From a virus, in the IMG/VR virus record IMGVR_UViG_3300017593_000402, positions 62,001-126,000 of that record: a DNA stretch of 64,000 nt. The stretch is one strand, 5' to 3'. Below the pieces are notes generated by a model. The model did not search any database and was not told where the DNA came from. It saw only the letters and a program-made list of their open reading frames with translations. The translations under genes and the position numbers were made by a program. Positions 16,092 through 62,623 of this stretch are shown one piece after another; within the stretch, counting starts at the first letter, position 1, and every line of letters starts with the position of its first letter.

Positions 16092-18185
16092 ATGGCAACT
16101 GAAGTTGTAAAGATAGTCGATACAGGAGGAAGTGGAGATTACTCATCTCTAGCTGCTTGGGAAGCAGACTTCGGGAGCTGTACCCAGTCGAACTACCCTT
16201 CTATGTCTGGAGACGGTGACCTTGTGGGAGCGGACTTGATCGCTGTTGCTGATTGTAGGTGTTCAACTGGGGATGAGGATGATAGTGCAGTTACTATTGA
16301 TGGATGGACTTCTGTAGACTCGGATCACTACATTAGGATTTGGACCGATCCAGATCAGGGGTACAGACACCCAGGGAAATGGGATGACACAAAGTACAGG
16401 CTTGTGCTCTCCGAAGGAACTATTTTTGACATACAAGAAGAGTATGTGAGACTTATTGGCTTACAGATGAAAGGAACGAGATCGACAGGGTCTCAGTTGT
16501 TGATACATACATATTACACAAGCCGTTATCTGCGGGTCGAAAAATGTATCCTCTGTAGAGAGAATGCTGGTGGAACAGTAAATACTGGAATTGGTTGTGA
16601 TAATTCTGCTGTACAAATTTATTTGGTCAATAATCTTTTTTATGACATACCTCAATATGCCATTCGTGGAAACGACTATTACTACTTATACAACAATACT
16701 ATTATCAACTGTGGTACTGGTGTAGATGGTGGATCATCAGGGTATTGCAGAGCTATCAACAACATTGTTGACTGTACTACTTGTTTTGTTGGGACTTTTG
16801 ATTCATCTTCTGATTACAACGTATCTTCAGATAATACAGCTCCAGGGCCAAATTCAATCCACAACGCTACAGTTACTTTTGTAGATGCAGCTAATGATGA
16901 CTTCCATCTAGATGCTTCTGATACAGTAGCACGAGACGCAGGTACTGACCTTTCATCCGATCCATATTTAGCTTTCACTGACGACATAGACGGCGAGACC
17001 CGCTCTGCACCTTGGGACATTGGAGCAGATGAGTATGTGAGTGGAGGAGGTGAGATCGTTGTAATATCTGATAATGGCTCTGGTTCTGATTCTTTGCTCC
17101 AGATAACAACGTTACTTTCTATAAATGATACTGGAACGGGTTTAGATTCTACTCCCAACCTCCAAGCTTCTTTGGACCTTTCTGAGCAAGGGTCAGGGGC
17201 TGATTTTTTATCCCAGCTTTCAGCTTTGTTAAATATAAATGATTCTGGTTTTGGGGAAGATAATTTACCTTCTATACCTGTTTCAGCTTTTGTATCAGAT
17301 ACTGGCACTGCTTCTGATTCTATTTCTTCTTTGACCGTTACTTTTTCAATTTCCGATGCAGGAGTAGGCTCAGATAGCCTTTCAGTATTAAAGGAACTTC
17401 TTAAAACCATTTCTGATTCAGGCATCGCTTCTGATCTAATAGCTTCTGTTACTGTAAATGTGTCTGTTCCTGATTTTACGTTAGGCCAAGACAATATAAG
17501 CGGTATATCAGCAACTTTGACATTGTCAGACACAGCGTCTGGGTTAGACGCAATAATAGTTTTAAAAGAGCTTTTAAAACAAGTTATTGATAGTGGATTG
17601 GGAGCGGACAGTGTTTCTTATTTAAACGTATCTTTTGGTCTATCTGATACTGGCAAAGGCAACGATATTTTATCTTCTATTTCTGCTAGGATTCCTATAT
17701 CAGACTTTGGTTTCGCTGTAGATGTAATTTCTGTTTTAACAGAAATAATCAAAAGTATATCCGAATCAGGGCAAGGCACAGACTCGCTTTCTTCTATTTC
17801 CGCAAATTTAGGTGTGACAGATGGTGCAATTGGGACCGATTCTGTTGGAATAAATGTATTTTTAACTGTTTCTGATGTTGCAACTTCAGCGGAAATTTTA
17901 ACGATAGCCAAAACTGCTCTAAAAGTAATAACTGATGGTGGAGTAGGATTAGACATATTAAGTAGTGTTGTAGTTAATGTTCCAGTTAAGGATTATGGGC
18001 AAGGACTTGATCTTATTACGCAAATAATTACAATATTATCTATAATTGACTTAGGAGTTGCTACTGATGTAATTTTAAGATATGATACTGCTGTTAAGTT
18101 AGTTAGTATCTCTTTTAGGCTTAAGAAATCAAATATTGAGTTTGGGCTTAGAACTAATGAAATTGAGTTTAAACTTTACACTTAG
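16092..18185 (+). CDS. Beta-helix fibre-like protein with 18 tandem 19-residue repeats
   Basis: 697 residues. Residues 1-320 look like a right-handed beta-helix of the pectate-lyase / choice-of-anchor type: SGDYSSLAAWEAD at the start, NNTIINCG and AINNIVDCT coils, and the closing DFHLDASDTVARDAGTDLSS and WDIGADEYV. Residues about 325-670 consist of 18 tandem repeats of 19-20 residues with consensus (I/V/L)SDxGxGxDxLSxL. A short C-terminal domain (SISFRLKKSNIEFGLRTNEI) follows. Probably a tail spike or fibre; the N-terminal helix may bind or cleave polysaccharide, and the repeats would form an elongated shaft. No catalytic residues could be assigned. Confidence 0.65.
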   Translation: MATEVVKIVDTGGSGDYSSLAAWEADFGSCTQSNYPSMSGDGDLVGADLIAVADCRCSTGDEDDSAVTIDGWTSVDSDHYIRIWTDPDQGYRHPGKWDDTKYRLVLSEGTIFDIQEEYVRLIGLQMKGTRSTGSQLLIHTYYTSRYLRVEKCILCRENAGGTVNTGIGCDNSAVQIYLVNNLFYDIPQYAIRGNDYYYLYNNTIINCGTGVDGGSSGYCRAINNIVDCTTCFVGTFDSSSDYNVSSDNTAPGPNSIHNATVTFVDAANDDFHLDASDTVARDAGTDLSSDPYLAFTDDIDGETRSAPWDIGADEYVSGGGEIVVISDNGSGSDSLLQITTLLSINDTGTGLDSTPNLQASLDLSEQGSGADFLSQLSALLNINDSGFGEDNLPSIPVSAFVSDTGTASDSISSLTVTFSISDAGVGSDSLSVLKELLKTISDSGIASDLIASVTVNVSVPDFTLGQDNISGISATLTLSDTASGLDAIIVLKELLKQVIDSGLGADSVSYLNVSFGLSDTGKGNDILSSISARIPISDFGFAVDVISVLTEIIKSISESGQGTDSLSSISANLGVTDGAIGTDSVGINVFLTVSDVATSAEILTIAKTALKVITDGGVGLDILSSVVVNVPVKDYGQGLDLITQIITILSIIDLGVATDVILRYDTAVKLVSISFRLKKSNIEFGLRTNEIEFKLYT
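17064..18096 (+). repeat. 18 tandem repeats of about 57-60 bases (19-20 residues)
   Basis: Coding repeats within the beta-helix gene. Each unit starts with a hydrophobic residue, then SD, ND or ED, a Gly/Ser pair, Asp, and a hydrophobic tail; examples are SDTGKGNDILSSI and SESGQGTDSLSSI. Units such as those with VLKELLK recur every third or fourth repeat, suggesting amplification of a multi-unit block. The antisense strand also stays open over long stretches because of this composition. Confidence 0.85.
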
Positions 18186-22239: not shown

Positions 22240-22937
22240 AACCATTATTTCAAACAGAGTTGTTTTTAGGAGAAGTACAAACTACTCCTAAATTTGTGGT
22301 GGTGTCTAGAAAGACACCTCTTCCTCTTTTAATTAATGGCTTGCCTACCGATTCGGGTTCTCTCAAGGCTCAGGATTTAACAGGATTGCAATTTGTTGGA
22401 GAAGCACACGCTCCGCCTTTGTCTTTACTTTTTGTCTGTTTAGGTAGGCAATGGAAAGTAGAAGGTAATCGTCTTTACTATAGTCCTCCTTTTACTTCTC
22501 TAAACTTAGAAGGCGGAGAGCATTATGAGGATGACTCTACAAAGGCTATTACTTTTAATCATTTAATAAATGCTGTAAGCATAAGCCCTACTGGGTTGGT
22601 ATGCAAATGGGCTTTATATGTATCGACTACAGAAGCTGTTTATGAGATAAAATTTCAGGGTACTAAGCCTTTGATTCAGAGAATAATTAGTTCTCCAGCT
22701 TTAGGTTCTATAGGTGTAGGCGTTCTGGAGAGGCCTATGTCAGACAGCCTTCCTTCAGGAACCCAGATAGTTATTATTCCTACGCATAAAGGAATTTTTA
22801 TTGCTACTGACGGTGGAACACTGCCATTGACTGAGAGACACCCCAATGTATTGTCAAATTTTGATTATGTACATATTGCCTTTAGTATTAATGATTATGG
22901 GCAGTATTTAGTATTTTTAGATGCTTTGAAAAAGTGA
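22236..22937 (+). CDS. Virion protein, possibly connector or beta-propeller-like
   Basis: 233 residues, beta-rich. The segment ALYVSTTEAVYEIK and the later GTQIVIIPTHKGIFIATDGG resemble single blades of tail-hub propeller proteins that follow the adaptor in podoviruses. GTG start overlaps the upstream stop (GTGA). A perfect copy of the genome-wide palindrome covers the stop codon. Function is inferred from order only. Confidence 0.45.
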   Translation: MKPLFQTELFLGEVQTTPKFVVVSRKTPLPLLINGLPTDSGSLKAQDLTGLQFVGEAHAPPLSLLFVCLGRQWKVEGNRLYYSPPFTSLNLEGGEHYEDDSTKAITFNHLINAVSISPTGLVCKWALYVSTTEAVYEIKFQGTKPLIQRIISSPALGSIGVGVLERPMSDSLPSGTQIVIIPTHKGIFIATDGGTLPLTERHPNVLSNFDYVHIAFSINDYGQYLVFLDALKK

Positions 22938-22948
22938 AAACGTTTTCA
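22935..22948. repeat. Palindrome TGAAAACGTTTTCA, copy 1 (gene boundary)
   Basis: Perfect 14-bp palindrome overlapping the TGA stop of the upstream gene and lying just before the TGGAGG ribosome site of the next gene. First copy in the window; none was seen in the first 22.9 kb. Confidence 0.9.
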
Positions 22949-22965
22949 TTTTTGGAGGTGATTCA

Positions 22966-30678: not shown

Positions 30679-32556
30679 ATGAGTTACGATGTAACCTCTC
30701 TTATTTCGGAAAGACTTGATGCTATTGAACACGGAGCGGCTACTACTACAGGAGCGATTAATAGTTTTTTGGATGAGTTTTTGCACAGAGGTGGAATAAG
30801 CATTAGTCTTGCTCCAATTAAAGATTTGCCTATTCAGGTTGAACCTATTCCTGACTTACCAGAGGAAATAAATGTTTCTGATTTAGATTATATTCCTACT
30901 GATTTAACTTTTCCTGATCATCCTATAGAAGAATTTGATTTAAACGAGCTTGTTTCTGAATTTGATTCTATTTCTACAGAAATAGGGCAGAATATAGACA
31001 AACCTCTTATTAGTTCTGTATCTCAAGCTTTAGATTCTATTTCTATGCCTGAAATTCCTGACGATTTAGATTCCATAACTGAACCTTCGTTAGAAGCAAT
31101 TTCTTTGCCTACGCTGCCTTCGTTTGATAAAGTGTCGGTTCCTTATCCAGAATCAATTACAACTGAGTTTTCTCCTGCGGATATACCTTCTCTTGCATTT
31201 ATTGAAACGCAACAGTTATTTAAAGAATTTGATTCTCTTTTACAAAAAGATTTGCAATTTTCTAGGTATGCACATGAATTGATAAGAGATAGACGCTCTC
31301 GAATTAAGGAGTTAATAAATTTTTACGAACGAGTTTTGAATATTCTCAAAACTACCAATCCTCTCCAAAGAGTTGAAAAAGTTATCAATGAAATAAATTT
31401 TATTGTAGATGAGGGAGAGAAAAGATTTATTAGTCCTATTTATGAGAGATACAGTTCTTTTGCTTCTAAAGATGTCAGAGATAAGTTAGAGAATTTGTAT
31501 TACCAGGCCAAAATTTTGAGTACGGGTCAATTGAAAGAAAAATACTTTAGTGAAAACGTTTTCACTGACCGTGATAAAGAAGATGAAATAGAATCTTTAG
31601 AACTTCAACTCAAGGAAGACTTAGATAAACACGAGACTGCTTATATAGATGCCTGCATTCAAGTTTGGAATGTTACTACTTCATATGTTCTTTTGTATGT
31701 AACCAAATTATTAATAGAATTTCAGCAAAGGCTTAATTATGAAAATATTTTGGTTCAGCTCCATGAGGACCTAAGTAAAGCAATTTTGAGATATTATGAT
31801 ATGTATAATGCTTTGCTCCAAGCTGAAAATACACAATTAGATAAGTTCAAAGCTGTTTTGAATAGAGCTAGTATGGAGTTAGATAAAATTCAATCAATTC
31901 TTGAAAAGAACAACGCCTATATAGAGGCTTATGCTGCTCAGGTTAGAGGGCTCCAAACTTTGGTTGATAAGTATAATGTAGATAGAAGACTATACCAAGC
32001 TCAGCTTGCTGAAAGATCATCTAGAGTAGATTTAGCTAGAAGCGTTTATCAAAACAATCAAGCTAAAGTTGATTTATATCAAAGAGCTGTAGCTCTGGTT
32101 AACAAGCTTTATGGTCTAAGACAAGAAAAAGTGAGAGATATTCTTAACAGAGGTAGAATTAAATTGGGGTTTGCTAAAGCTCAACAACAGTTAGACGTGA
32201 CAGTTTCTAAAGCTTTGGAAAACATTTATAATATTTATGGTGATATTATGGAAGTAGATATAGACAGATATAAAGCTGAATATAATAATATTTTGAATGA
32301 TAGTATTTTGGATTATAAAACTAAAGTTAGATTGAATGCGGAACGAGCTAATTTATTAAAACAAGCTTACTCTGTGTTTCTCCAAAAAGTGGGGCAAGAA
32401 GATAGGTATATTTTAACAAGTACTCGATTGATCAATGATATGGCAAACAGATTAGCTATGGAAGCTTTTAGGCCTTTGGCTTCTATGTCTTCTGGATTAT
32501 TGAGTGCTATTGATGCTGTTGTTAATGGGTTATACGAATTTGTAGCTGAGGGATAA
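30679..32556 (+). CDS. Coiled-coil virion protein, second of a similar pair
   Basis: 625 residues with the same arrangement as the gene before it: about 180 Pro/Asp/Ile-rich residues (LPEEINVSDLDYIPTDLTFP), then long helices (LENLYYQAKILSTGQLKEKY). A palindrome copy lies inside at 31551, encoding Ser-Glu-Asn-Val-Phe-Thr. Spacing of one base from both neighbours shows tight coupling. Possible ejection or internal head protein. Confidence 0.5.
   Translation: MSYDVTSLISERLDAIEHGAATTTGAINSFLDEFLHRGGISISLAPIKDLPIQVEPIPDLPEEINVSDLDYIPTDLTFPDHPIEEFDLNELVSEFDSISTEIGQNIDKPLISSVSQALDSISMPEIPDDLDSITEPSLEAISLPTLPSFDKVSVPYPESITTEFSPADIPSLAFIETQQLFKEFDSLLQKDLQFSRYAHELIRDRRSRIKELINFYERVLNILKTTNPLQRVEKVINEINFIVDEGEKRFISPIYERYSSFASKDVRDKLENLYYQAKILSTGQLKEKYFSENVFTDRDKEDEIESLELQLKEDLDKHETAYIDACIQVWNVTTSYVLLYVTKLLIEFQQRLNYENILVQLHEDLSKAILRYYDMYNALLQAENTQLDKFKAVLNRASMELDKIQSILEKNNAYIEAYAAQVRGLQTLVDKYNVDRRLYQAQLAERSSRVDLARSVYQNNQAKVDLYQRAVALVNKLYGLRQEKVRDILNRGRIKLGFAKAQQQLDVTVSKALENIYNIYGDIMEVDIDRYKAEYNNILNDSILDYKTKVRLNAERANLLKQAYSVFLQKVGQEDRYILTSTRLINDMANRLAMEAFRPLASMSSGLLSAIDAVVNGLYEFVAEG
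31551..31564. repeat. Palindrome TGAAAACGTTTTCA, copy 2 (in gene)
   Basis: Perfect copy flanked by G and C (16-bp palindrome), inside the coiled-coil gene, read as SENVFT. Confidence 0.9.
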
Positions 32557-36500: not shown

Positions 36501-39500
36501 AAGGATTGATAACTGAAAAGGAAGCCCAGGCTCGAATTAGATTCTTTGATAAGTTCGGTGAAAACGTTTTCAGATTTAAGTCCGAACTAACGTCTGGTTT
36601 AACAGATATGTTTCGCAAATGGGCAGAAGGAGAGCCATATAAACTTGACCCAGAAGAACCAGATTCCCCTCATATCAATAACATAATTATGGAGGCCCTT
36701 GGTACTCCCAAAGAAAAAATAGCTCCTCGTTATACTTTAGAAGAACTGCTTCATCCTCCAAAAGATAAAGCTGAGGAAATTTCCCATCATCTAGCCTATG
36801 GCTTTGCTTATACCATAATGGACAGGTATATTCGTTTGGCAAGAAATATTCCAGTTTCTACTGTTGAAGACATATTAGATAATATGCTTACTTACGGATT
36901 GGTTCATTATGAAATGGCGTTTGAGGATGAAGATTCTTTCTTCTTTAACGAATTGGCTCCGACCGAACTTTCTGATGAGCAAATTAAACAGTTATTAAAG
37001 AATGCTACGTTTGACAAAATAGCAGACTATTTGGAAAATTTTCACTTTTTCTTCCTAAAGAATAATATGGGTCTCCATAAATTGGATACTATTTTAGGTC
37101 TGTCCGCAGGATTAATGAAATACACAATGGATTTAATTAGGTCTGAGGAGTATTTTGAGTCTACTGATGCTGGCCGAGTTGTAAGGAACGAAGTGAAAAA
37201 TGTGGTAATGCCTGCTATCCAGAGAATAATTCAGGCTGCTGATAAGTTGATGGTTGTAAGCCGAGACCTAAAGCATATTGTAGGTATAAAAGGTATTATG
37301 AAAAAGCTAGAGCGAACGATTCTAGCTTATCAAAATAAAGAAATAGATGATCCTGAAAAATATATTAGAACATTAGAGCCTTATTGGAGAAAAGTAATTC
37401 TCCCTTATCTAACATCTAATGAAAAGGCTTTAGCTGAAAAGATAGGAAGCGAAGAATTTTACAAAGCTAAGAAAGCTGGGATAGCAGATAAGATTTTGAA
37501 CAACCTTGCAGACCGTATGACTGCTTACTCGACCAGTGCGAATGGTTTTAAGAGTCTGGTTACCCAGCCAAATACAAATGCTTATCAAGCTCTTCTCTAT
37601 CTTTCAAAACATGCACAAAGTTTGCATGTTCGACAGATGGCTAGCATTTTGGCCGAGCTAGGTTATGTTGCCAAAGCTCTTCCAGACGTTCCATTGGAAA
37701 TACGCAGGGTAGCCTCTTCTTCTCGTGCGGTATTCAATAGCAGGGGACCTCATGTTGGTACTATTACTGTTCGACCTAACTTGAGCCCTTATGAACTTGA
37801 GGTTTCCTTTTTGCACGAAGTAACACACGCTCTGACTTATTATAGACTTTCTGTTAACAAAGAAGCCCTCCAGACCGTTAACAATTTGATGGTTAAGGCT
37901 AGAGAACACATATCTGACACGGAAAAGAAAGTAGCGGATTTGCTGCTTCGTCAGGTTAGGCTAAAAGAAGCTGTAGATTGGGACGAGATTAACGAGCTAA
38001 CAAAAGATGATGAATCATTTAAAGCTCATTATAAAGAATATGGTGACAAGTGGTACTTGGTTTTGTACGGATTAGCTCATCCCCATGAGTTTGTGGCAAA
38101 CGCCATATCTGATCCTGCTACATATTTGTTTTTAAATGGCATTGAAGTAGAAAAGAAACAGAGTTTGTGGGACAAGGTAATTGATTTCGTTGTCAATGTT
38201 TTAGGAATAGGAAAAGACAAAGCTACTTTATGGACTGAATCTGTCAAAGAAATTTTGGATATTATTAATAAAAGCAAATTAGATGATGTGGTTTTCCTCA
38301 AACAGTTAAGAAGAGAACCTCAAATTTCGAATTACCTCAAACAACAATTAGAAGCTACTGAACTAGCTGATCCTGTATTGAAAGATTTTCAGGTACAGCA
38401 ATTTGAAGAGAAGCTACAGCAGTTTGCACCTTCTTTGAACGATTATGATTATGAACATTTGAAAGGATTTGCTAAGCAGCTTCTTAAACAATCACCTAAA
38501 GCGGCTCCTAAGCTTGCAGATATAGGCAAAGTAAGACAAGCTGTAGGTTTGCCTTTGTGGACATCTCTTATCCATCCAGAATTTGCTCCTTTATTTAAAC
38601 ATACAGTTAAAGCGATGGAGGAGAAAAATTTTGCTCTCCACAATATTTTGGAGACGGGTAATATTTATTTTTCCCAGCTTAATGATGAAGAAAAAGAAGT
38701 TGTTAATGCTGCAATTAAGATAAGTGATGCTTTGAATATACAATTTACCAGGAAAGAATTGGCTAATTTTCCAAATACAGTTAAAAGCCTTAAAGCTCTT
38801 TTCAATAAGCTGTTTATTTACAGAAAAGCTCCTTCGGTTGTTCGCCAGCAAATTCTGGAGCAGTCTCCTTTTGATCTGCCAAAAGAATACTCACAACCAG
38901 AGTATATTAAGAGGTTTAAGTACTTTTTTGATTATGCTCTGCCTAGTTTTAAGATACAGAAAATTTATGGAGTTATGGCTGATGGTTACTATAACTATTG
39001 TGAAGTAACCAACAAAACAGCAGAACATATTTCGGATAAACTTCTTACTCTTATTATCGACGTTGTAGTAAAAGACCCGATGGCTTCTAATACTATTTTT
39101 GCTCTAATCAAACATCCAGAATTGAAAAAGAAAATATCTGAAGATGCTTTAGCAACTTATGAGCCAATTCTTGAAGAAGTAGAAAATCATCCGCTTTTTA
39201 AAAAGTATGAAAGAATTAGAGATTTGATTGATAAGTTAGACTTTTATAGTCCTCGTTACAGAGACCAAGATGCTTCTGAAATGATTGTAGCTTTTGACAA
39301 AGAAGCTTTTGCCAAATCATTTAAGAAACACATAGCCCAAACTGGGAGCAGAGCTAAGGCTCTGGAAAAAGTTTATGACGACTTGTCTCAGCAAAACAAA
39401 GTATATCTAAGAGAACACGTAAGAAGAATTGATCCTGATATGCAGAAAAAGCTAGAAAGAGCCAAAAGAGTGTTTGGCAAAGACAATGTTGTCCTTCTAC

Positions 39501-41353: not shown

Positions 41354-43707
41354 AAACTCAAATTAGTTCCTATTTTTCCTTCTGTTTCTATGGGGTATTC
41401 GACTGTAATACCCCAATGTTTTTTTATGTACTCTTTAGTTCTGTTTTCAAAACAGTCCTTTAGTATTTCTTGGCATTTTTCTATTACATCTTCTCTAGCT
41501 CGATAGTAATAAGCATCGTGAATAAACAAGTTGGTAAGTTTTACTTTAGTTCTCAATTTAGGTTGGCTGTTTATTTCCTTATAAAAAAGGCTAACTCCTA
41601 GACATGCTAGTTCACTGCTAAAATTTTGTACTGGAGTGTTAATAGCTTGTCGTTCGGCCTTGCTTCTGAAGTAAATATTTTTGTCATTAATTCTAGGCAG
41701 ATGTCTTTTCCTTCCAAGCACACAACGAATGTATCCACGCCTAGATGCAATAGCTACCATCTTTTTGTGATAAATAGGCAATCTCCAGTACCCGTTAGGA
41801 GCTGAGAAAAATTTTTCTCTGTATTCCACTGCTTCCTTTTCTGTAAGCACAATATCATAGTTTTTAAAAGCATAATCCACTAAAGTTTTTGCTTGCATTC
41901 CATACAACAATCCAAATACAACAGGCTTTGCTTTTTGTCTTTGCTCTTTGCTTACTTTGTTATAAGGAGTTCCTGTCAATATAGAAGCAGTGTATGTATG
42001 TATATCCAATCCTTTGCGTAGTGTTCCTAGTATGTTTTGGTCATTGGCTAACCAGCCTGCGATTCTAACTTCACTTTGAGACAAATCTTGTGTTCCAATC
42101 AAGTAGCCATCTTCTGCGGTAATCAATTCAAGTATGTATTTGGCTAATTCTCCGTGAGTAGGAAATTGTTGCATAGGAGGGTCAAGCATAACTGTTCTAC
42201 CAGTTACAGTTCCAGTTAGAAAAATTTTAGGATAAATATATCCGTTAGGTTTAAGGTTTTTCCTTATTAAAGGAATATAAGTCGAAAGAATTTTTTTAAT
42301 CTTGTTGTATTTAATAAGATTAGCAACCCAGGGATGGTCTTTAAACCGCTTAAGATGATGTTTGTCTGTTGAAGGTTGGTTGGTTTTTTCTGTAAATGAA
42401 ATAGGCTTCAATCCTAAGCCTTTTTTCGTAAACATATATTCAGCAATAACATTAGGGGTAAGTTTCTCAGCTCCTGGCGGTAAGAGTTTTTCTTCTAATG
42501 TATGTAACTCGTCATACAAAGCGTCTTCGTTTTCATCAAGTTTGTTTATGTTTATAGGCCAACCCGTTTGCGATATATCAGCAAAGGCTTTTTCTACAGG
42601 AACTATATAATAGCGATAATACCGCATTAACTTCTTATCTTTCTTTATATGCGTTGTTAAGTTTTTGTATATTTCTAACGTGGATTTAGCATCAATAGCT
42701 ACGTATTTGATTAATCTTTTCTTTTCTATTTTGTCTAAGTTAGTTCTGTCATTGTTTACTATGTTTTTAATGTTATGAAAATTGGTATACACGTTAGCTA
42801 GGTGTTCCAAGTTATACGACTCCATATTTTCGTCCACAATGTGAGCCATATTCATTACATCATAAACAGGGCCTTTTACTTCACATTTTAAATTTACTTT
42901 GCATACCCATTCATCAAAAGGACGATTGTGTACTATTTTGATTATTTTTGGACTGCTTAAAATTTCTCTGACTTTGGGTTTGAGAGTATTGTTTTTAATC
43001 TGGGAGGAATAAATCTTATCTGTTCCTGCTAAGGAAATGGCCAAAACTTTCCCGTTAGTGTGCATTACATTCAAATTTTCAGTTTCCAAATCAAAAGCTA
43101 CTACATTGGACGTAGGCAGCTCAATGGAAGAATAGTCTATGTCTATTTCTGATAGTTTTCCGCTTTTAAAATATTCTACTGCTTCCTTCAAATCAGAATA
43201 AAAAAGCTTTTCAGCTTCCTTCATTTTAGAGACAGGGATATAAGGGTACCCTGTGTGGGCCTGGCGTAACACATATGAGGGATGGTATGTGGCAATGTAA
43301 GTATAAGGACCTAAAGTATGAAATGCACCTCTGAATTTACCTATTTTCTTTTTGTTTAAATGTTGGAATAAAGCCCACTCCCCAAGTAAAACTATAAGGT
43401 TAGGTTGGAGCATTTCCAGGGCTTTCATTGCATATTCTTTACAGTGCTTCACAGCCTTTTCTATGTCTGTTCTAGAATCATCAGGGTATTTAGGGCATCT
43501 CATAGAATTTAGAATTGAATAGTCCTTTCGTTTTAATCCCAGCAGTGAAAACGTTTTCATTAATAATTGACCGCTTGGTCCGATAAAAGGCTTGCCTGCT
43601 TCTAGCTCTTCTTTGCCAGGGCATTCTCCTATTACAACAAGCTTGGGAGAATTTTTTTCATATTTAACTTTTGGCCTTCCTCTAAAAGGACAACCTTTGC
43701 AACTCAT
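41350..43707 (-). CDS. DNA polymerase I family A with N-terminal UDG-like domain
   Basis: 785 residues in three parts. Residues 1-185 form a family-4-type uracil-DNA glycosylase domain: CKGC, GECPGKEE, the cysteines in MRCPKY and KHCKE (four potential 4Fe-4S ligands) and the TYHPSYVLR motif. Residues about 200-390 are a 3'-5' exonuclease (VVAFDLETENL). The rest is a family A polymerase: motif A DLSQSEVRIAG (Asp 541), motif B RQKAKPVVFGLLYG, motif C FIHDAYYY (Asp 731). The usual Glu after that Asp is Ala here. It is the last gene of the leftward replication operon and contains a palindrome copy at 43546. Confidence 0.88.
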   Translation of the reverse strand: MSCKGCPFRGRPKVKYEKNSPKLVVIGECPGKEELEAGKPFIGPSGQLLMKTFSLLGLKRKDYSILNSMRCPKYPDDSRTDIEKAVKHCKEYAMKALEMLQPNLIVLLGEWALFQHLNKKKIGKFRGAFHTLGPYTYIATYHPSYVLRQAHTGYPYIPVSKMKEAEKLFYSDLKEAVEYFKSGKLSEIDIDYSSIELPTSNVVAFDLETENLNVMHTNGKVLAISLAGTDKIYSSQIKNNTLKPKVREILSSPKIIKIVHNRPFDEWVCKVNLKCEVKGPVYDVMNMAHIVDENMESYNLEHLANVYTNFHNIKNIVNNDRTNLDKIEKKRLIKYVAIDAKSTLEIYKNLTTHIKKDKKLMRYYRYYIVPVEKAFADISQTGWPININKLDENEDALYDELHTLEEKLLPPGAEKLTPNVIAEYMFTKKGLGLKPISFTEKTNQPSTDKHHLKRFKDHPWVANLIKYNKIKKILSTYIPLIRKNLKPNGYIYPKIFLTGTVTGRTVMLDPPMQQFPTHGELAKYILELITAEDGYLIGTQDLSQSEVRIAGWLANDQNILGTLRKGLDIHTYTASILTGTPYNKVSKEQRQKAKPVVFGLLYGMQAKTLVDYAFKNYDIVLTEKEAVEYREKFFSAPNGYWRLPIYHKKMVAIASRRGYIRCVLGRKRHLPRINDKNIYFRSKAERQAINTPVQNFSSELACLGVSLFYKEINSQPKLRTKVKLTNLFIHDAYYYRAREDVIEKCQEILKDCFENRTKEYIKKHWGITVEYPIETEGKIGTNLSF
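43546..43559. repeat. Palindrome TGAAAACGTTTTCA, copy 4 (in gene)
   Basis: Perfect copy inside the UDG domain of the polymerase gene, read on the minus strand as MKTFSL. Confidence 0.9.
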
Positions 43708-50362: not shown

Positions 50363-51564
50363 TCTAACGGTGACTCCGCTTCAACTTCTGAAAAATCCAT
50401 TCGTTCCCAATCCCAGTGGATTTGGAAGATACAATTTACGCCTTCTCTGTTTGCTATAGTTTCGACTGTTTTTACATTTGCTCCTTCTTCGCCATATATG
50501 CTCATGGCTACGGAGCAAAGCTGTGACAAAGCGTCAGTTAAATGTATGTGTTCAAGTCCACCAGACTTTTTCTCCTTTGGAGCTTCTCTGTTGAATTGGA
50601 ACGAAACTACCAAAGGTATGTTAAAATTGAGTGCCATTAGTTTTAATTCTTGTGCGATTTCACTGGCAACCTCCCACTTTGCTTTATATTTGCTGTTAAT
50701 TTTTATCAAATACCCTCCATCTATAAACACTAAATTAGGTTCGTGTTCATCTATTAACACAAATATGTCATCAATCGTGTGACGGAATTTTCCGTCAACA
50801 TAGATTAGAGGAGGCGCATTGGTCTTTGATTCCTCAATAGCTTTTTCAGCAAAGGTTGAAATCTCACCTTTCTTTACAGCCTCAAATTTGAGCTTGTGCG
50901 CCATAGCAATAATTCTTTTTGCTTGTTGCATTAATCCCATTTCCATTGAGATTAACATAGCTTTATAACCAGCTTTGCTAGCTTGATAGGCCGAGTAGAC
51001 CATTGACATGCTTTTGCCCTTCTTGGGCCTCGCTAAAATTAAATTTAAGTCTCCAGGCTGATAGCCTTCTATAGCCTCATCGAGGCTTTTCCATCCAGTC
51101 GGAATTCCAAATGGTAGGCCAATCTTAGCCCTTCTTTCTCTTACGTACCCCAAAAACACATCGACTAATTCGTCGAACATATAGACGCCATCATCCGTCT
51201 TTTTCATAGACCTGTATCGGTCTGTAATTTCTTTCATTATTCGTAAAGCACTATCCAGGTCGTGTTTGACCAACGCTCCTTCAATTTGTTTTGAGGCTTC
51301 TACTAAATCCTCCTTAAATTTCCTTTCGATACACCTTTCAAGTAGCAAGTCAATTGGTGTATCTGGTATAAGAAGAGCTTCCTCATCGAGCAGTTCTGCT
51401 AAAGTTGAAAGTCGAGGTAATTCGTTGTATTTGTCTACATATTTTTTGATTATATGGTAAGCTTCTCTCTCGTCTTCAATGAAAACGTTTTCACTCAGCT
51501 TTTTGAACAGCTTTATGTTGTCTTTCTCTACTATCGCTGTGAGCAGTTTTAAACCAACTGACAT
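50359..51564 (-). CDS. DnaB-like replicative helicase
   Basis: 401 residues. An N-terminal helical domain, then GIPTGWKSLDEAIEGYQPGD, Walker A ARPKKGKSM, ISMEM, a LVFIDGGYLI Walker B segment and VVSFQFNREA. These are the DnaB/T4 gp41-like RecA-fold helicase motifs. In the gene order it follows two small proteins and precedes the primase. A palindrome copy lies in the 5' part (51480). Confidence 0.8.
   Translation of the reverse strand: MSVGLKLLTAIVEKDNIKLFKKLSENVFIEDEREAYHIIKKYVDKYNELPRLSTLAELLDEEALLIPDTPIDLLLERCIERKFKEDLVEASKQIEGALVKHDLDSALRIMKEITDRYRSMKKTDDGVYMFDELVDVFLGYVRERRAKIGLPFGIPTGWKSLDEAIEGYQPGDLNLILARPKKGKSMSMVYSAYQASKAGYKAMLISMEMGLMQQAKRIIAMAHKLKFEAVKKGEISTFAEKAIEESKTNAPPLIYVDGKFRHTIDDIFVLIDEHEPNLVFIDGGYLIKINSKYKAKWEVASEIAQELKLMALNFNIPLVVSFQFNREAPKEKKSGGLEHIHLTDALSQLCSVAMSIYGEEGANVKTVETIANREGVNCIFQIHWDWERMDFSEVEAESPLE
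51480..51493. repeat. Palindrome TGAAAACGTTTTCA, copy 5 (in gene)
   Basis: Perfect copy inside the DnaB-like gene, read as SENVFI on the minus strand. Confidence 0.9.
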
Positions 51565-52791: not shown

Positions 52792-53013
52792 CTAGCTCTC
52801 CTTTCCATCTAGTAGGAGATACCACCTAGCTTCTCCATACCCGTAGAAATTTTTGTCGGGACACTCGTCCAAATCTGCTATGTATTTTGGTTCAAAATTA
52901 AATGTGCATATCCTCCAGGGAGTCCTGTAGAATATGCACAGTCTTTCTCCTACTTCACAATACTTTATCCACTTGTCATTTCTTATTGGAAAACCAGGTA
53001 TTAATTCTTTCAT
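52792..53013 (-). CDS. Small protein after the AAA+ gene, unknown
   Basis: 73 residues (IPGFPIRNDKWIKYCEVGER, YRTPWRICTFNFEPKY, CPDKNFYGYGEARWYLLLDG). Beta-rich with two scattered cysteines. It overlaps the AAA+ gene by 4 bases and is the last gene of the outer leftward group. Not recognised. Confidence 0.45.
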   Translation of the reverse strand: MKELIPGFPIRNDKWIKYCEVGERLCIFYRTPWRICTFNFEPKYIADLDECPDKNFYGYGEARWYLLLDGKES

Positions 53014-54536
53014 GTTAATAATACTTTTGTGGATTTGCTTACTTTCGGAACTTGGTTAGCAATCCTTGCTCTGGTAGTTCCCCACTTTCTCAGTTCTTCA
53101 ATTTCTTCTTTTCTGCTAATTGATAGAGGAACAGTAACGTCGCAAATTTCCAAAATATCTTGGGTAGTTACGTCTCTTTCTTCATAAAAAGCTTTAACTT
53201 TTGATTGCTTCAACACGTTCTCTATTTCAGCTCCTGTAAATCCTTCTGTTACTTTTACAATCTTGTCGAGTGAAAACGTTTTCACTTCCAGTCTGAGTTT
53301 TTTCATGTGTATTTTAATTATTTCTTCTCTTTCTATTTTCTTTGGTAAATCAACAAACCACAGCTCATCGATTCTACCTTTTCGTTCTAGCTCTGGAGGA
53401 AGAGCATGGACATTATTTACTGTAAAAGCAAAGAAAATCGGAGCTGTAGTTTCCTGCATAAAATAAAGGAACGAACCAATTACTCGTGCTGTAGTTCCAG
53501 CGTCTGTAAAATCTGAAGAACCCATTCCACTAAAAGCTTTTTCTGCTTCGTCTATCATCACCACTACAGGAGCTTGTGCTTCTATTTCCTTCAATACTCT
53601 CCTTGTATTCTCTTCAGTTTCACCAAGTCTTGGACCAAACAGACTTCCCACATCTACTCTAAGCAAGGGAACATTAAAAAGATTTGCCAGTATCTTACAG
53701 CTCAATGTTTTGCCTGTACCAGGAACACCAGCTAACAACATTCCTTTAGGGACTGGGACTTTTTCTGCTATTGCCTTAGCTCGATTGTTAAATACTTTTG
53801 CTGCCATTACTGCCCAATGCCTAAAAGCGTGGAGGCCTCCTAAATCATCTATTGTGTCTTCAGGACTTAAGTATTCTATCATTCCATTTTTCCTTACTTT
53901 TTCAGCCTTCAATTTTTGAAGTAAGTTTAAGTCTAATTTGCCTTTGCCTTGCACTAATGCTGTTTTAAAAGCCAGGTTAGCTTCGTGCATAGTAAGGCCT
54001 GTTAAATATTCCGCTGCCTGCTTGCACTTGGCTTTACTGATTTTTACTTTGTTGTTCTTTACGATGTCTTCTACAATTTTTAATAGCTCTTCTTGAGTAG
54101 GAAAAGGAATGTCTATCATTCCACAATATTGAGAAATTTCTTCTGGCAGATTGAAATTGCCTTGCATTATGCAAATAGTGAAAGAGTCTGAGCTGGCTAT
54201 CTTCCTGAGATATGTAGTAATTAGCGGTAAATTAAATCTTTCAGTTAAGTACCAATGAAAATTGGTTAGCAAATATATGTGTGGTTCGTTATCGGCCGCA
54301 ATATGCCTTAAAATATCCATATGGTTAGAGCATTCTCCGTTTACTCCGTCTATGGAGTTCCAAATCTTTAAGGAATACCCCTTTTCTGCTAAATCGGGAG
54401 GAACTACTTTTGATTTTTTGAGTTCCTCGTTCAATTCTTTTACTGTATTTTTTACTATTTCTGTAATTCGTTCTGTTTCGATTGAATTAATTAAAATGAT
54501 TTTATACCGACTTTTTATCATTGTTTTTAACATCAT
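53010..54536 (-). CDS. Ycf46-like AAA+ ATPase
   Basis: 508 residues. N-terminal 230 residues form a degenerate ATPase-like domain (SRYKIILINSIETERI, IYLLTNFHWYL, LPEEISQYCGMIDIPFPTQE, LTGLTMHEANLAF). A linker, NGMIEYLSPEDTIDDLGGL, leads to the active AAA+ module: GMLLAGVPGTGKT, RVDVGSLFGPRLGETEEN, VVVMIDEAEKAFSG, TTARVIGSFLYFMQE, LPPELERKGRIDELWF. Order and motifs match the Ycf46 family of cyanobacteria and plastids. The start ATG 54536 overlaps the stop of the Cys-rich frame (ATGA). A palindrome copy lies at 53271. Confidence 0.8.
   Translation of the reverse strand: MMLKTMIKSRYKIILINSIETERITEIVKNTVKELNEELKKSKVVPPDLAEKGYSLKIWNSIDGVNGECSNHMDILRHIAADNEPHIYLLTNFHWYLTERFNLPLITTYLRKIASSDSFTICIMQGNFNLPEEISQYCGMIDIPFPTQEELLKIVEDIVKNNKVKISKAKCKQAAEYLTGLTMHEANLAFKTALVQGKGKLDLNLLQKLKAEKVRKNGMIEYLSPEDTIDDLGGLHAFRHWAVMAAKVFNNRAKAIAEKVPVPKGMLLAGVPGTGKTLSCKILANLFNVPLLRVDVGSLFGPRLGETEENTRRVLKEIEAQAPVVVMIDEAEKAFSGMGSSDFTDAGTTARVIGSFLYFMQETTAPIFFAFTVNNVHALPPELERKGRIDELWFVDLPKKIEREEIIKIHMKKLRLEVKTFSLDKIVKVTEGFTGAEIENVLKQSKVKAFYEERDVTTQDILEICDVTVPLSISRKEEIEELRKWGTTRARIANQVPKVSKSTKVLLT
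53271..53284. repeat. Palindrome TGAAAACGTTTTCA, copy 6 (in gene)
   Basis: Perfect copy with G and C flanks inside the AAA+ gene, read as VKTFSL on the minus strand. Confidence 0.9.
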
Positions 54537-55128: not shown

Positions 55129-55389
55129 TTAGATGCGGATAATGATTTCATTTCCTACCTCCTCTTTTATTCCACCAGTTTTTTCTACTAAATAATCTAC
55201 AATTAAATCAGTAACTTTGCTAACATCCATAACGTCATACTTTAACTTTTTATCTTGAATTTTTATCGGTCTAAATAGCTCTGTGTTAGTGAAAACGTTT
55301 TCACTTGTTTCTTTATAACCTTTTTTTATTGCGATTTCCCTGAACAAATCAGGTTCTACTTTTAATTCTACTTCAACTATTCTGCTCAT
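55129..55389 (-). CDS. Small protein, possibly DUF1257 (Ycf35)-like
   Basis: 86 residues from ATG 55389, chosen for its AAGGAG spacing. MSRIVEVELKVEPDLFREIA, KGYKE and a late YDVMDVSKVTDLIVDYL resemble the shape of DUF1257 proteins, which begin with a similar strand and helix and end with a Tyr-Asp strand. Identity is weak and rests partly on the neighbouring DUF2997 and Ycf46-like genes. A palindrome copy lies inside at 55290. Confidence 0.4.
   Translation of the reverse strand: MSRIVEVELKVEPDLFREIAIKKGYKETSENVFTNTELFRPIKIQDKKLKYDVMDVSKVTDLIVDYLVEKTGGIKEEVGNEIIIRI
55290..55303. repeat. Palindrome TGAAAACGTTTTCA, copy 7 (in gene)
   Basis: Perfect copy with G and C flanks, read as SENVFT on the minus strand. 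Confidence 0.9.
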
Positions 55390-55400
55390 TTTCATTCTCC

Positions 55401-55844
55401 TTACCACCAAATAGTTTGTTTAGTTTTTGTTATTTTTTCTAACATTTCATTCTTTCCTTGAAGAAATTTTCCAGATGTTTTTATCCACAGACTTGGAGCA
55501 TCTTTTACTCTCACTAAAATTTCTGGGACATTATCTAATTCTATGAAGCCAAAATGGGAGTGAGTGGGCCTCCCCCACTCCATGATTTTTGTGTTTAATA
55601 CTATCAATACTGAGTCTGGAATGTCTAATTTACAAACTACCCGTACAATATACGGGTAGGAGGAGCAATCTTTTTTGTATACCATCCATTCGTGAGGAAA
55701 TAAATAACTAACATGACGATAGACCCACTTCACTCCTTTCTGCTTTATTTCTTTAAGGCTGGTGTGGTAAAGAAAGCCCACACTCAGCCGAATGGATGAC
55801 CTGGCAGAGGTAGATAATGTCCCTCTGCTGAATTGTAATTCCAT
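55401..55844 (-). CDS. Unknown protein of the outer leftward operon
   Basis: 147 residues, beta-rich with many aromatic residues (VKWVYRHVSYLFPHEWMVYK, YPYIVRVVCKLDIPDSVLIV, HSHFGFIELDNVPEILVRVK). No motif recognised. The start touches the upstream stop. Confidence 0.42.
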   Translation of the reverse strand: MELQFSRGTLSTSARSSIRLSVGFLYHTSLKEIKQKGVKWVYRHVSYLFPHEWMVYKKDCSSYPYIVRVVCKLDIPDSVLIVLNTKIMEWGRPTHSHFGFIELDNVPEILVRVKDAPSLWIKTSGKFLQGKNEMLEKITKTKQTIWW

Positions 55845-56476
55845 TATTCCTCCTCATCATCGTCAAACTCTACTTCTCCCCATTCTTCTTCCTCTATAGG
55901 TTCATCTGACATCAAGAATTCTTGACAGATATATTCGAGGGCGGCTCCGTTGCTGTCTGTTCCAACCATTTGTTTAGCTTTCTCGATTGCTTGGTTGACA
56001 ACATCGTATTGGTCTTCAATTAAATTGAATGTTATTTTAGTGATATTAATTTCCTTTTTAGGTGCAATGTTTTTTCTAAGTTGTTTTACAGTATCTTTTA
56101 CTTCTTGGAATGTCATATTTGGAGCTTTCTTAAGTAGTTTTTCTATTTCTTCTTTGTTATCTAACAGGCTTATTTCTTTGAATTTGGTCCAGGAAACATT
56201 TAAAATCACCTCCTTTGGAATATTGTATTTAGAAATAGTTTCTCCCATTTGGGCATACCAAAGAGCAATCCTGTACTCCAGACTCAATTCTCCTTCTACG
56301 TAATCTTTATAACTCTCATAGCCCCAGGATGCGTATTGCTCTTTTTCTTTGACTTCATAGAGCTTGAGATATAAGTCATACCTGCTTTCGTCGATATTCC
56401 TGGCGAGAGTTTTGATTTCCTCTCTAATGCTGACCTTGGCTTTTTTTTCCATTTTTACGCTTTTTTTCTTTGCCAT
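55844..56476 (-). CDS. Helical protein with acidic tail, possible DNA-binding
   Basis: About 210 residues from ATG 56476 (GAGGAGG upstream). A basic N-terminus (AKKKSVKMEKKAKVSIREEI) is followed by a region like YASWGYESYKDYVEGELSLE with helix-turn-helix-like shape, a central NVSWTKFKEISLLDNKEEIE and a very acidic end (EEEEWGEVEFDDDEEE). It resembles DUF3102-type phage proteins, but this is tentative. Possible early regulator. Confidence 0.4.
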   Translation of the reverse strand: MAKKKSVKMEKKAKVSIREEIKTLARNIDESRYDLYLKLYEVKEKEQYASWGYESYKDYVEGELSLEYRIALWYAQMGETISKYNIPKEVILNVSWTKFKEISLLDNKEEIEKLLKKAPNMTFQEVKDTVKQLRKNIAPKKEINITKITFNLIEDQYDVVNQAIEKAKQMVGTDSNGAALEYICQEFLMSDEPIEEEEWGEVEFDDDEEE

Positions 56477-57167: not shown

Positions 57168-57605
57168 ATGAAAACGTTTTCACTTTTGCCATCGACTGAG
57201 CCCAAACAATTTTCTGATGATGAATTGGATGGATTTGATCTCCTTCCTCAGTCTTGGAAAACATTTGCTATCGAATATTTAAAACATCGACGGCCTATTC
57301 GAGCAGCGAAAATTGCTGGATTTAAAGACCCCAAAAAAATGGCGAAACGCCTGCTCCAGAATGAAAAAGTAAAGCGTTATATGGAATATGAACAAGAAAG
57401 AATGAAAGAGCTAGCTCGAATAGACAGAGAATATGTTGTTCTCAAATTAAAAGAAATAGCAGAAAAAGGAGCAAAAACGAGCGACCGACTCCAAGCTTTG
57501 AATTTGCTTGCCAGGATCGAAGGCTTACTCCAAGACAAAGCCGCCCAACAGCCTCCTGTTCTTCTTTTTAACTTCCAGGGCTTAAAGGTAGAGAGCGAAG
57601 ACTAG
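57168..57605 (+). CDS. Terminase small subunit
   Basis: 145 residues. SWKTFAIEYLKHRRPIRAAK, AGFKDPKKMAKRLLQNEKVK and RYMEY form the helix-turn-helix and arm of Terminase_2-type small subunits; ARIDREYVVLKLKEIAEKG and DRLQALNLLARIEGLL match the C-terminal helix. It binds packaging sites and recruits the large subunit, which is not in the window. The start codon lies within a palindrome copy, which fixes the first residues as MKTFSL. Confidence 0.8.
   Translation: MKTFSLLPSTEPKQFSDDELDGFDLLPQSWKTFAIEYLKHRRPIRAAKIAGFKDPKKMAKRLLQNEKVKRYMEYEQERMKELARIDREYVVLKLKEIAEKGAKTSDRLQALNLLARIEGLLQDKAAQQPPVLLFNFQGLKVESED
57169..57182. repeat. Palindrome TGAAAACGTTTTCA, copy 8 (start codon)
   Basis: Perfect copy beginning at the second base of the small-terminase ATG, 31 bases after the -10 of its promoter; an operator-like position. 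Confidence 0.9.
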
Positions 57606-60704: not shown

Positions 60705-61187
60705 ATGGACGACAGACCTACAAAAAGCAGGTTATACCAGTCCTTGCCGCATGGCAGCGGCATTGACCTAGACTGGTACATTGAGGAAACCCGTAAATCT
60801 TTTAGGTGCTACAACGGGTATCACTGTATGGACGAAAACGGGTTTTACGAGGGGTGGGCCGATTTTGTCTTGATAGTACCAAAAGCTAACCCGTTGGAGT
60901 TTAAGCTTCAATTCCGTGGACGCAGGAGCCAATATTTAGCCAGGAAGCATATGTTAAGAGATTATTTGGAGGACGCATTCCTATTTGCGTTAACAAGCGA
61001 ATTCCCACGGTATGTCAGCGATATACCAAAACACTATGTTCTGGTGTACAATAGTCAAGATATAAGGGCGTTGGGAGTCAATCCTTGGGACTACCCACTG
61101 ATATTCTACGATCCCGAAAGCGAAAGAATTTATGGGATTAAAAACAACGTGGCTTATTTGAATTTACCTGTAGTAAGGGTAAAATGA
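60705..61187 (+). CDS. Early-region protein, unknown
   Basis: 160 residues. KSRLYQSLPHGSGIDLDWYI, YNGYHCMDENGFYEGWADFV, HMLRDYLEDAFLFALTSEFP and YVLVYNSQDIRALGVNPWDY. Compact alpha/beta with many aromatics; no known motif. AAAGGGGG precedes ATG 60705. Expressed from promoter copy 2. Confidence 0.5.
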   Translation: MDDRPTKSRLYQSLPHGSGIDLDWYIEETRKSFRCYNGYHCMDENGFYEGWADFVLIVPKANPLEFKLQFRGRRSQYLARKHMLRDYLEDAFLFALTSEFPRYVSDIPKHYVLVYNSQDIRALGVNPWDYPLIFYDPESERIYGIKNNVAYLNLPVVRVK

Positions 61188-61441
61188 AAACGTTTTCACT
61201 AGACTGGGAGGAATTAGATATGGCACGATTTCAGGGAATAGTTGAAACTGATAGGGCAAAGAGGACTAGCCGACTAGCGAACAAGTGGGGGACGGTTCAA
61301 CTAAATACATGGGATAAGGGCGTCCTTGTGGAGGCCCAATACAACGACACTACAAAGCAGATAATTTTTTCAGTATGGGAAACTGGGGGGAGCAATTACC
61401 CCAGGCCCAAGAAACTGTTAGCTAGAATAGAGGAAGGCTAG
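61184..61441 (+). CDS. Small protein starting in a palindrome, unknown
   Basis: 85 residues beginning MKTFSLDWEELDMARFQGIV. The ATG overlaps the previous stop (ATGA) and is part of a palindrome copy, as in the small-terminase gene. The remainder is strand-rich and basic (KWGTVQLNTWDKGVLVEAQY). There is no ribosome site of its own, so translation depends on the upstream gene; an ATG at 61220 with GGGAGG upstream is an alternative start. Confidence 0.5.
   Translation: MKTFSLDWEELDMARFQGIVETDRAKRTSRLANKWGTVQLNTWDKGVLVEAQYNDTTKQIIFSVWETGGSNYPRPKKLLARIEEG
61185..61198. repeat. Palindrome TGAAAACGTTTTCA, copy 9 (start codon)
   Basis: Perfect copy over the start of the 61184 gene and the stop of the upstream gene. 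Confidence 0.9.
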
Positions 61442-61909: not shown

Positions 61910-61947
61910 ACTCCCTAGGGTATCGGACACCTAGGGAGTGTTTTTTT
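61910..61947 (+). terminator. Rho-independent terminator before the iteron gap
   Basis: Stem ACTCCCTAGG / CCTAGGGAGT with a ten-base loop, then GTTTTTTT. It isolates the following 440-base non-coding region from upstream transcription. Confidence 0.88.
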
Positions 61948-61983
61948 AAGGGCGTGGGCGATTTTTATCAACCCTCCCATACG

Positions 61984-62278
61984 AAATGTAAAAAGTAAAA
62001 GTGAAAATGTTTTCACATACAAAATGTAAAAAATGAAAGTGAAAATATTTTCACGCACAAAATAAAAATGAAAACGTTTTCACTCGCTCAGTGGGAGTGT
62101 TTCCAGAAAAAATAAAGTGAGAATATTTTAGGTTGCGAGTGAAAACGTTTTCACTCATAAAAAATAAATTAGAAGGTGAGGTTGTTCCAGGAATTTATTA
62201 AGTGAAAATATTTTCACTGTTGAAGATGTTTTTAGTTTTTGAGAGTGTGGTTATCCACAAAAGTGAAAATATTTTCAC
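61984..62278. repeat. Iteron-like cluster of the palindrome
   Basis: Within the gene-free gap 61901-62386 lie GTGAAAATGTTTTCAC (62001-62016), GTGAAAATATTTTCAC (62039-62054, 62202-62217, 62263-62278), and the perfect form at 62069-62082 and 62140-62153. A degenerate copy is at about 62117-62131. The first two sit in direct repeats of about 38 bases (61984-62020 and 62022-62058). No open frame of note is present. The arrangement resembles origin iterons, a partition site or an operator array. Confidence 0.85.
62251..62259 (+). promoter_or_regulatory. DnaA-box consensus TTATCCACA
   Basis: A perfect match to the bacterial DnaA-box consensus, four bases upstream of the last palindrome in the iteron cluster. 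Supports, but does not prove, a replication origin. Confidence 0.55.
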
Positions 62279-62311
62279 TTTGAAATAAAAAAGTTTTAGT
62301 CAAATTTTTTC

Positions 62312-62346
62312 TTGACAGTAATATAAGGTTGTGTTATATTACTGTC
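62312..62346 (+). promoter_or_regulatory. Promoter with overlapping 13-bp inverted-repeat operator
   Basis: TTGACA (62312-62317), 17-base spacer, TATATT (62335-62340). The perfect inverted repeat GACAGTAATATAA (62314-62326) / TTATATTACTGTC (62334-62346) with a seven-base spacer covers both boxes, so a dimeric repressor there would block RNA polymerase. It drives the genes from 62387 on. Confidence 0.85.
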
Positions 62347-62386
62347 CAAAAAGTAGATGTGAAATGTATTGAAAGGAGGGAGTGTT

Positions 62387-62623
62387 ATGGCAACGATTTT
62401 GGTATGCGACCTTTGTGGTAGTAAGCAAAGTGTGAAAAGGTGTTCTTGGACGATTGATCGAGAGACGGATGCCGCAGGAAGCGCAGACGATGTTTTTATG
62501 AATGTAGATTTATGTTTGAAATGCGAAAATCGGTTACTTAGACGAGTCATTGATAGTCTAATAAAGGATGAAATAGAGTTCGGTAAAAGGATGTGGGATG
62601 AATATAGAAATATTCTTAGGTAA
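62387..62623 (+). CDS. Zinc-finger-like small protein
   Basis: 78 residues from ATG 62387 with GAAAGGAGGG upstream. VCDLCGSKQSVKRCSWTIDR and DLCLKCENRL give two Cys pairs, a likely zinc ribbon, followed by a helix. First gene behind the operator-promoter. A DNA- or RNA-polymerase-binding role is possible but unproven. Confidence 0.6.
   Translation: MATILVCDLCGSKQSVKRCSWTIDRETDAAGSADDVFMNVDLCLKCENRLLRRVIDSLIKDEIEFGKRMWDEYRNILR

Follow-up and report, generated by a model that had tools for sequence, protein, structure and literature searches.

A dense group of palindromes at about 62 kb of a viral DNA had been read, in an original prediction, as an iteron-type replication origin or a partition centromere. 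The question raised by this locus is whether these palindromes serve the place where they are crowded or the genome as a whole, and which protein could recognise them. The DNA analysed, called here the window, is a stretch of 64,000 nucleotides (positions 62,001 to 126,000) of the 137,043-base virus record IMGVR_UViG_3300017593_000402. Positions are those of the window unless the record is named.

The palindrome cluster and its phage

The last ~420 bases of the record are an identical copy of its bases ~78,373–78,792 (window ~16,373–16,792), about 85% similarity is seen directly upstream of this duplicated stretch, and the GC content shifts within the record at about 78–80 kb. Because of the identity between the end and the internal stretch, together with the GC shift, the record is most readily understood as chimeric, with two phages fused at a common gene. 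Phage A (about 78 kb, 44% GC) accounts for window position 1 to ~16.4 kb. Phage B, which is circular, with 58,251 bp and 37% GC, accounts for the window from ~16.4 kb on and holds the palindrome cluster. Its close relatives are 60–61 kb long, with circular ends in two of them: G1 (IMGVR_UViG_3300010330_000002, 61 kb), G3 (3300013103_000002, 60 kb) and G4 (3300028908_000010, 61 kb); G2 is a fragment. A G3-type contig of 60,244 bases can also be found under a Candidatus Cloacimonadota MAG (QMNM01000001.1, B8_Guay9), which may be either a hint about the host or a binning artefact.

The cluster comprises six copies of the 14-bp core TGAAAANNTTTTCA within 276 bp (62002–62015, 62040–62053, 62069–62082, 62140–62153, 62203–62216 and 62264–62277), with a degenerate seventh copy at 62115. 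The main features are as follows, the palindromic sites being given without strand.

61910..61947, plus strand: terminator-like hairpin and T-run left of the cluster, seen by eye; kept in G1 and G2
62001..62016: cluster site 1, GTGAAAATGTTTTCAC, TG centre
62039..62054: cluster site 2, GTGAAAATATTTTCAC, TA centre, perfect palindrome
62068..62083: cluster site 3, ATGAAAACGTTTTCAC, CG centre
62139..62154: cluster site 4, GTGAAAACGTTTTCAC, CG centre, perfect palindrome
62202..62217: cluster site 5, GTGAAAATATTTTCAC, TA centre, perfect palindrome
62263..62278: cluster site 6, GTGAAAATATTTTCAC, TA centre, perfect palindrome
62312..62340, plus strand: strong sigma70-like promoter, TTGACA at 62312, 17-nt spacer, TATATT ending at 62340; 11 of 12 matches, top of the scan

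Most of what had been described at this place is borne out. The announced six copies are there, although their division into two perfect and four variant palindromes does not hold: four are perfect 16-bp palindromes (GTGAAAATATTTTCAC three times, GTGAAAACGTTTTCAC once) and the other two are near-perfect. The direct repeat of about 38 bases lies at 61975–62012 and 62013–62050 (87%), and the DnaA-box-like 9-mer TTATCCACA is present, exact, at 62251. The terminator proposed on the left is recognised as a 10-bp stem (61910–61919/61930–61939) with a loop of 10 followed by T7, and is absent from the list of the hairpin scanner since the loop limit of the latter is 8; the promoter proposed on the right is the sigma70-like one listed above. 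Six sites within 280 bp were obtained in none of 20,000 random placements of 18 sites, and a 300-bp stretch at the cluster reaches the 99.7th percentile of AT content within phage B. No match to named phages was found by megablast of the cluster region.

G1 and G2 have, at the equivalent position, a cluster of five copies in about 135 bp, bounded by the orthologous terminator and the same promoter, and G4 has no cluster according to its core count. On the basis of these sequence comparisons, the cluster is a conserved trait of one subgroup, and the dispersed set of sites described below is the general trait.

Two minor features were observed next to the promoter. An inverted repeat of 19 nt (62308–62352, 89% complementary) flanks the promoter itself, with a similar AT-rich repeat in G1 and G2, and could be a second operator. 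The first gene past the cluster promoter in B (62387–62623) encodes a product related to a small protein of phage A (record 3564–3830, 41% identity), both having a zinc-ribbon-like start.

A set of sites spread over the genome

The same palindrome is also found outside the cluster, which had been missed: the original prediction captured the densest part of a real but larger feature. The core is a strict 14-bp palindrome, TGAAAA(YR)TTTTCA, with TG[A/C]AA-N4-TT[T/G]CA as the general form. Phage B has 18 exact cores, namely 6 in the cluster and 12 dispersed (9 in the window and 3 elsewhere in the record), and the counts are 18 in G1, 25 in G3, 14 in G4 and 12 in the fragment G2, against 0–0.2 expected for B, G1, G3 and G4. 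When up to three mismatches are allowed, 17 matches are counted in the window for 1.7 expected, a number reached by no shuffle, so that the abundance of sites is far above chance. Sites with one mismatch are not in excess in B, G1, G3 and G4, and the motif is thus nearly all-or-none. Phage A contains zero palindromes, all the copies of the record being in B. A search of all IMG/VR for a pattern of two neighbouring cores yielded three contigs only, all of them relatives of B that were also found by terminase search.

The dispersed sites of the window are the following.

22934..22949: GTGAAAACGTTTTCAT, overlaps a stop codon and precedes the following gene; kept in G1, G3 and G4
31550..31565: within a 625-aa ORF; kept in G1
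36558..36573: within a 2590-aa ORF; kept in G1
43545..43560: near the start of the UDG-PolA gene; kept in G1 and G4, in G3 at the same 154 bp from that start
51479..51494: near the start of a DnaB-like helicase gene; kept in G1, in G3 at the same 77 bp from that start
53270..53285: within the AAA+ gene; kept in G1 and G4, with altered centre
55289..55304: within a small ORF; kept in G1
57168..57183: over the start codon of a terminase-small-subunit-like gene and 136 bp ahead of the divergently oriented P210 operon
61184..61199: over a stop/start junction; kept in G1

The centre of the sites is nearly always a pyrimidine-purine step, which is CG in most dispersed copies. A TA or TG centre is found in 8 of the 11 cluster copies of B and G1, versus 1 of their 25 dispersed copies (Fisher P=4e-5, not phylogenetically corrected).

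Sites that could be mapped between B and G1, most of which are inside genes, were compared. The core is identical in 10 of 10 cases, with flanks (120 bases on each side) that are 64–85% identical; the log10 P of this core identity is about -13 when bases are treated as independent. Purifying selection is shown, at the level of sequence conservation, to act on the sites as DNA. Some of them are also preserved in G3 and G4; others have been subject to turnover. A function as RNA hairpins appears unlikely, because the sequence itself is fixed, beyond what mere pairing would require.

Intergenic positions are clearly preferred (10 of 18 sites in B, 8 of 18 in G1, 13 of 25 in G3 and 6 of 14 in G4), compared with an intergenic share of 7–10% of the sequence. 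Sites are often located just upstream of a ribosome-binding site or over a stop or start codon, and many are found mid-gene.

P210 and the phages that share it

The genes common to all four phages include those for PolA with a UDG domain, RecA, a helicase, a primase, DnaB, an AAA+ protein and a protein of 210 residues, P210. In the first of these, at 41350–43707 on the minus strand, a uracil-DNA-glycosylase domain and an exonuclease/PolA polymerase are fused in a single gene. Two products of this set could be relevant to the recognition of the palindromes.

55844..56476, minus strand: P210, PHROG_17202 profile match, predicted Noc/ParB-like N-domain and RHH-like C-domain; proposed palindrome binder
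53010..54536, minus strand: AAA+ ATPase (PHROG_8638), common to other P210-family phages; possible partner

The whole P210 protein matches the profile of PHROG_17202, a family of unknown function, with E=1.9e-22 (homologs 1e-46 to 1e-129). An AlphaFold model of its N-domain has a mean pLDDT of 84.7, and its nine best PDB matches by Foldseek, with E-values of 0.47–2.0, are all ParB or Noc; one of them, 7ng0, has a probability of 0.98 and a TM score of 0.56, and the Noc-DNA complex 6y93 a probability of about 0.9. The Foldseek E-values (0.5–3) are weak. The predicted model is consistent with a likeness to the Noc/ParB DNA-binding fold, without being decisive. Judged from its sequence, the C-terminal part reads as strand-helix-helix and RHH-like. 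B and G3/G4 have the same core motif, but the residues of the RHH-like strand that are predicted to face the DNA are not the same in B as in G3/G4. No match was obtained for P210 in a sequence search of the PDB. With HTH_ParB (PF17762), nothing exceeded the cut-off, P210 included, the sole weak match being in phage A (record 5449). Phage B and its relatives (G000, G001, G003 and G004) gave no match to the ParB_N CTPase domain (PF02195), and a ParA-type ATPase (PF13614) is absent from B and its relatives. Among viral structure predictions, several DUF3102 proteins and the homolog of phage SM1 resemble the P210 N-domain, and DUF3102 could represent a DNA-binding domain of the same type.

P210 is the best candidate binder of the palindromes. 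In 11 of 14 genomes, a site is found 68–201 bp upstream of its gene (in the B family, upstream of the operon), with a combined P of 8e-7 that is overstated since the sites favour intergenic DNA. A search with the N-terminal half of the AAA+ protein against phages gave no match and does not serve to separate this protein from P210. An HTH and Zn-ribbon protein encoded downstream (L009:2531-2878) was also considered and set aside: it is poorly conserved (25–56%), its Zn ribbon is NrdR-like and it was not traced in P210-family phages.

The distribution of P210 extends well beyond the relatives of B, with homologs detected by tblastn in 45 named phage records. These phages share the replication block with B, not its structural genes. 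Genomes of named phages with P210 homologs were scanned blind, for any over-represented palindrome and with no motif supplied. In most of them one architecture came out among the top motifs: TGCAA-N4-TTGCA in RcZahn, HJ05, DLP5, TM16, L338C and YDF132, with close variants in PG28, LV6 and SIO-2. In 13 homolog-bearing phages, which include the close pairs DLP3/DLP5 and TM16/Y1_11 and thus amount to roughly six or seven independent lineages, the counts of TGMAA-N4-TTKCA range from 1 to 52, with a median of 25 per 100 kb. In contrast, the count is 0 or 1 (median 0) in eleven controls that share the terminase or polymerase with B and were picked by their absence from the P210 search, not by the PHROG_17202 profile (P=1.3e-5). 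A held-out check was made on four phages chosen by helicase similarity alone. SM1 has PHROG_17202 (7.6e-23) and 30 copies of the motif; in pVp-1 and YS40_Isch, the helicase occurs without PHROG_17202 and the motif at background counts; KarBoss has PHROG_17202 and few copies. VHS1 and Vibrio phage 1.215.A are further exceptions with PHROG_17202 or a P210 homolog and few sites, and the site may have been lost or changed in this group. ParB_N is encoded by some P210-family phages; it is not the common factor, since neither the B family nor RcZahn nor SIO-2 has it. Finally, P210 comes as part of a complete inherited replication module that also includes the polymerase, RecA, helicases, primase and AAA+, and the association alone therefore does not single it out.

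The sites of these phages are often spaced quasi-regularly, at 2–4 kb. Gaps are more even than random, all with P<0.001, in HJ05 (CV 0.36), DLP5 (0.48), TM16 (0.53), SM1 (0.55), YDF132 (0.57) and L338C (0.66), and at P 0.013–0.028 in G1 (P=0.016), SIO-2 and G3. The spacing in phage B is borderline and not significantly even (P=0.057); in G4, RcZahn and PG28, evenness against random placement is not significant.

What the sites may do

Several known systems have part of these features. Noc, the nucleoid occlusion protein of Bacillus and Geobacillus, also uses short palindromes dispersed over a genome, and the fold predicted for the P210 N-domain is Noc-like. However, P210 has no ParB_N/CTPase domain and has an RHH-like end, its proposed sites are of the TG[A/C]AA-N4-TT[T/G]CA form, and they mark a phage genome rather than a chromosome. 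MatP binds DNA through an RHH-type domain, at dispersed palindromes (matS) of the GTGA...TCAC type that are confined to the Ter region of E. coli; it is comparable in binding type and in dispersed palindromes, unlike in the Ter confinement, and likened here by description, not by sequence. The ParB–parS systems, including those of plasmid prophages, combine a palindromic site with an HTH protein, and some P210-family phages are indeed extrachromosomal: DLP5 is maintained as a phagemid (PMC5834331) and VHS1 persists extrachromosomally (PMC3148565). In contrast, phage B and its relatives have neither ParA nor ParB_N, and have tens of genome-wide sites instead of one centromere. The proposal of a partition centromere is thus retained in part: the palindromes are of the parS/Noc type and their putative binder is predicted to be Noc/ParB-like, but the partners are missing and the sites are not confined to one locus.

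The reading that we prefer, with confidence evenly balanced, is that the palindromes are the sites of a phage Noc/ParB-like protein that would organise or maintain the phage genome, the cluster being their densest array. P210, with its Noc/ParB-like domain, its RHH-like tail and no CTPase, would bind the sites as a dimer and, acting like Noc, MatP or ParB, organise the phage chromosome while it replicates or persists extrachromosomally: the DNA would be compacted, scaffolded or segregated. The extrachromosomal persistence of DLP5 and VHS1 would fit such a maintenance role by analogy. The cluster, with its TA- and TG-centred variants beside a strong promoter, could be a local high-occupancy array controlling this promoter, and would perhaps nucleate assembly. 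More tentatively, the PHROG_17202 family might consist of widespread, hitherto unrecognised phage chromosome organisers, in which a CTPase-less Noc/ParB-like domain and an RHH-like domain would use palindromes every 2–4 kb to fold, protect or segregate DNA without ParA. Several points count against P210 as an organiser: the weak Foldseek E-values, the lack of an HTH_ParB match, the differing DNA-facing residues of B and G3/G4, the inheritance of P210 with the rest of its module, the preference for gene junctions, the spacing that is not significantly even in B, G4, RcZahn and PG28, and the VHS1, KarBoss and 1.215.A exceptions.

The main rival is silencing of the stoperator type, to which we give a limited though appreciable probability. 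P210 or another phage repressor would block transcription initiation and elongation genome-wide, silencing or timing genes, and the cluster would act as a major operator ahead of the 62312 promoter. The gene-junction preference of the sites suits a transcription role too, as do the intergenic enrichment in B and G3, the frequent stop/start-junction sites about 20–30 bp upstream of start codons, the strong conserved promoter adjoining the cluster and the site that precedes the gene or operon of P210. Repressors with many dispersed sites are known: mycobacteriophage L5 has more than 20 short stoperators per genome, many at gene junctions (PMC9283540), and one phage-encoded protein, MrpR, binds the repeated SPBRE site of SPbeta (PMC10516654), a role that is inferred for P210. 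The resemblance is limited, as the 13-mer sites of L5 are asymmetric and oriented, a monomer binds them and they act in an orientation-dependent way (PMC9283540), whereas the B-type sites are symmetric, roughly half intragenic and often quasi-regular; MrpR has a tyrosine-recombinase fold and promoter-region sites, whereas P210 is predicted to be Noc/ParB-like and RHH-like. In addition, many sites are mid-gene in long genes, far from promoters, and several phages have a spacing more even than random, which would not be expected of a gene-specific regulator. An integrase profile search of phage B and its relatives found none over the cut-off, which also speaks against such a repressor. T1-like phages described as lytic or virulent (T1, TLS, Stevie) also have about 16–20 dispersed repeats, with a role described as unknown (PMC4319613, PMC11447400), although these are asymmetric 22-bp repeats oriented with transcription.

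The other explanations appear less probable. A direct service of the sites in replication or recombination, as dispersed loading or initiation sites possibly bound by another protein of the module such as the AAA+ ATPase, is rather improbable. The motif does track the replication module and not the structural genes, and is absent from phages sharing only the terminase or polymerase, but the other module proteins examined have no recognised site-specific DNA-binding domain, and pVp-1 and YS40_Isch have the helicase with the motif at background. An iteron-type or DnaA-dependent origin confined to the cluster, as first proposed, has become very improbable. Its dense repeats, its high AT content, its single exact DnaA-box-like 9-mer and its position kept in G1 and G2 speak for it; yet TTATCCACA is absent from the G1 and G2 clusters, most copies of the palindrome are kilobases away, some inside genes, G4 has no cluster, and the scanned proteins include no recognisable RepA-like initiator. 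The suggested GC-skew check gave the same sign on both sides of the cluster in B and G1; the detrended skew reaches its minimum about 5 kb from there, in the region of the divergent operons. Least probable of all are cre operators of the LacI family, to which CcpA or another host regulator would bind. The CG-centred sites look like an ideal cre palindrome, TGAAAACGTTTTCA resembling the cre consensus, but the TA-centred cluster sites do not fit, a strict core that is dispersed and partly mid-gene is unlike cre sites, no LacI family protein exceeded the cut-off in phage B and its relatives, and P210-family phages of several proteobacterial hosts use the TGCAA version with the same architecture.

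These results tie PHROG_17202 to a DNA code that is specific and genome-wide, and that occurs in phages infecting Rhizobium, Rhodobacter, Aeromonas, Vibrio, Stenotrophomonas and Pseudomonas and in those of uncultured hosts. If the organising role of P210 is true, phages would use a Noc/ParB-like marking system for organising or maintaining their own DNA, and extrachromosomal prophages such as DLP5 would be partly explained. Dispersed sites that organise or silence a replicon are of an already known kind; a phage-encoded genome marking linked to this family appears to be new. No description of the link between PHROG_17202 and palindromes was found in the open-access papers searched, nor anything directly relevant on dispersed phage palindromes, DUF3102 or L338C. 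One of the controls, Rhizobium phage RHph_TM3_14A, which has terminase and capsid genes in common with B, contains a different dispersed palindrome, GTTACC-N6-GGTAAC, in 15 copies, and dispersed palindromes may be commoner than thought.
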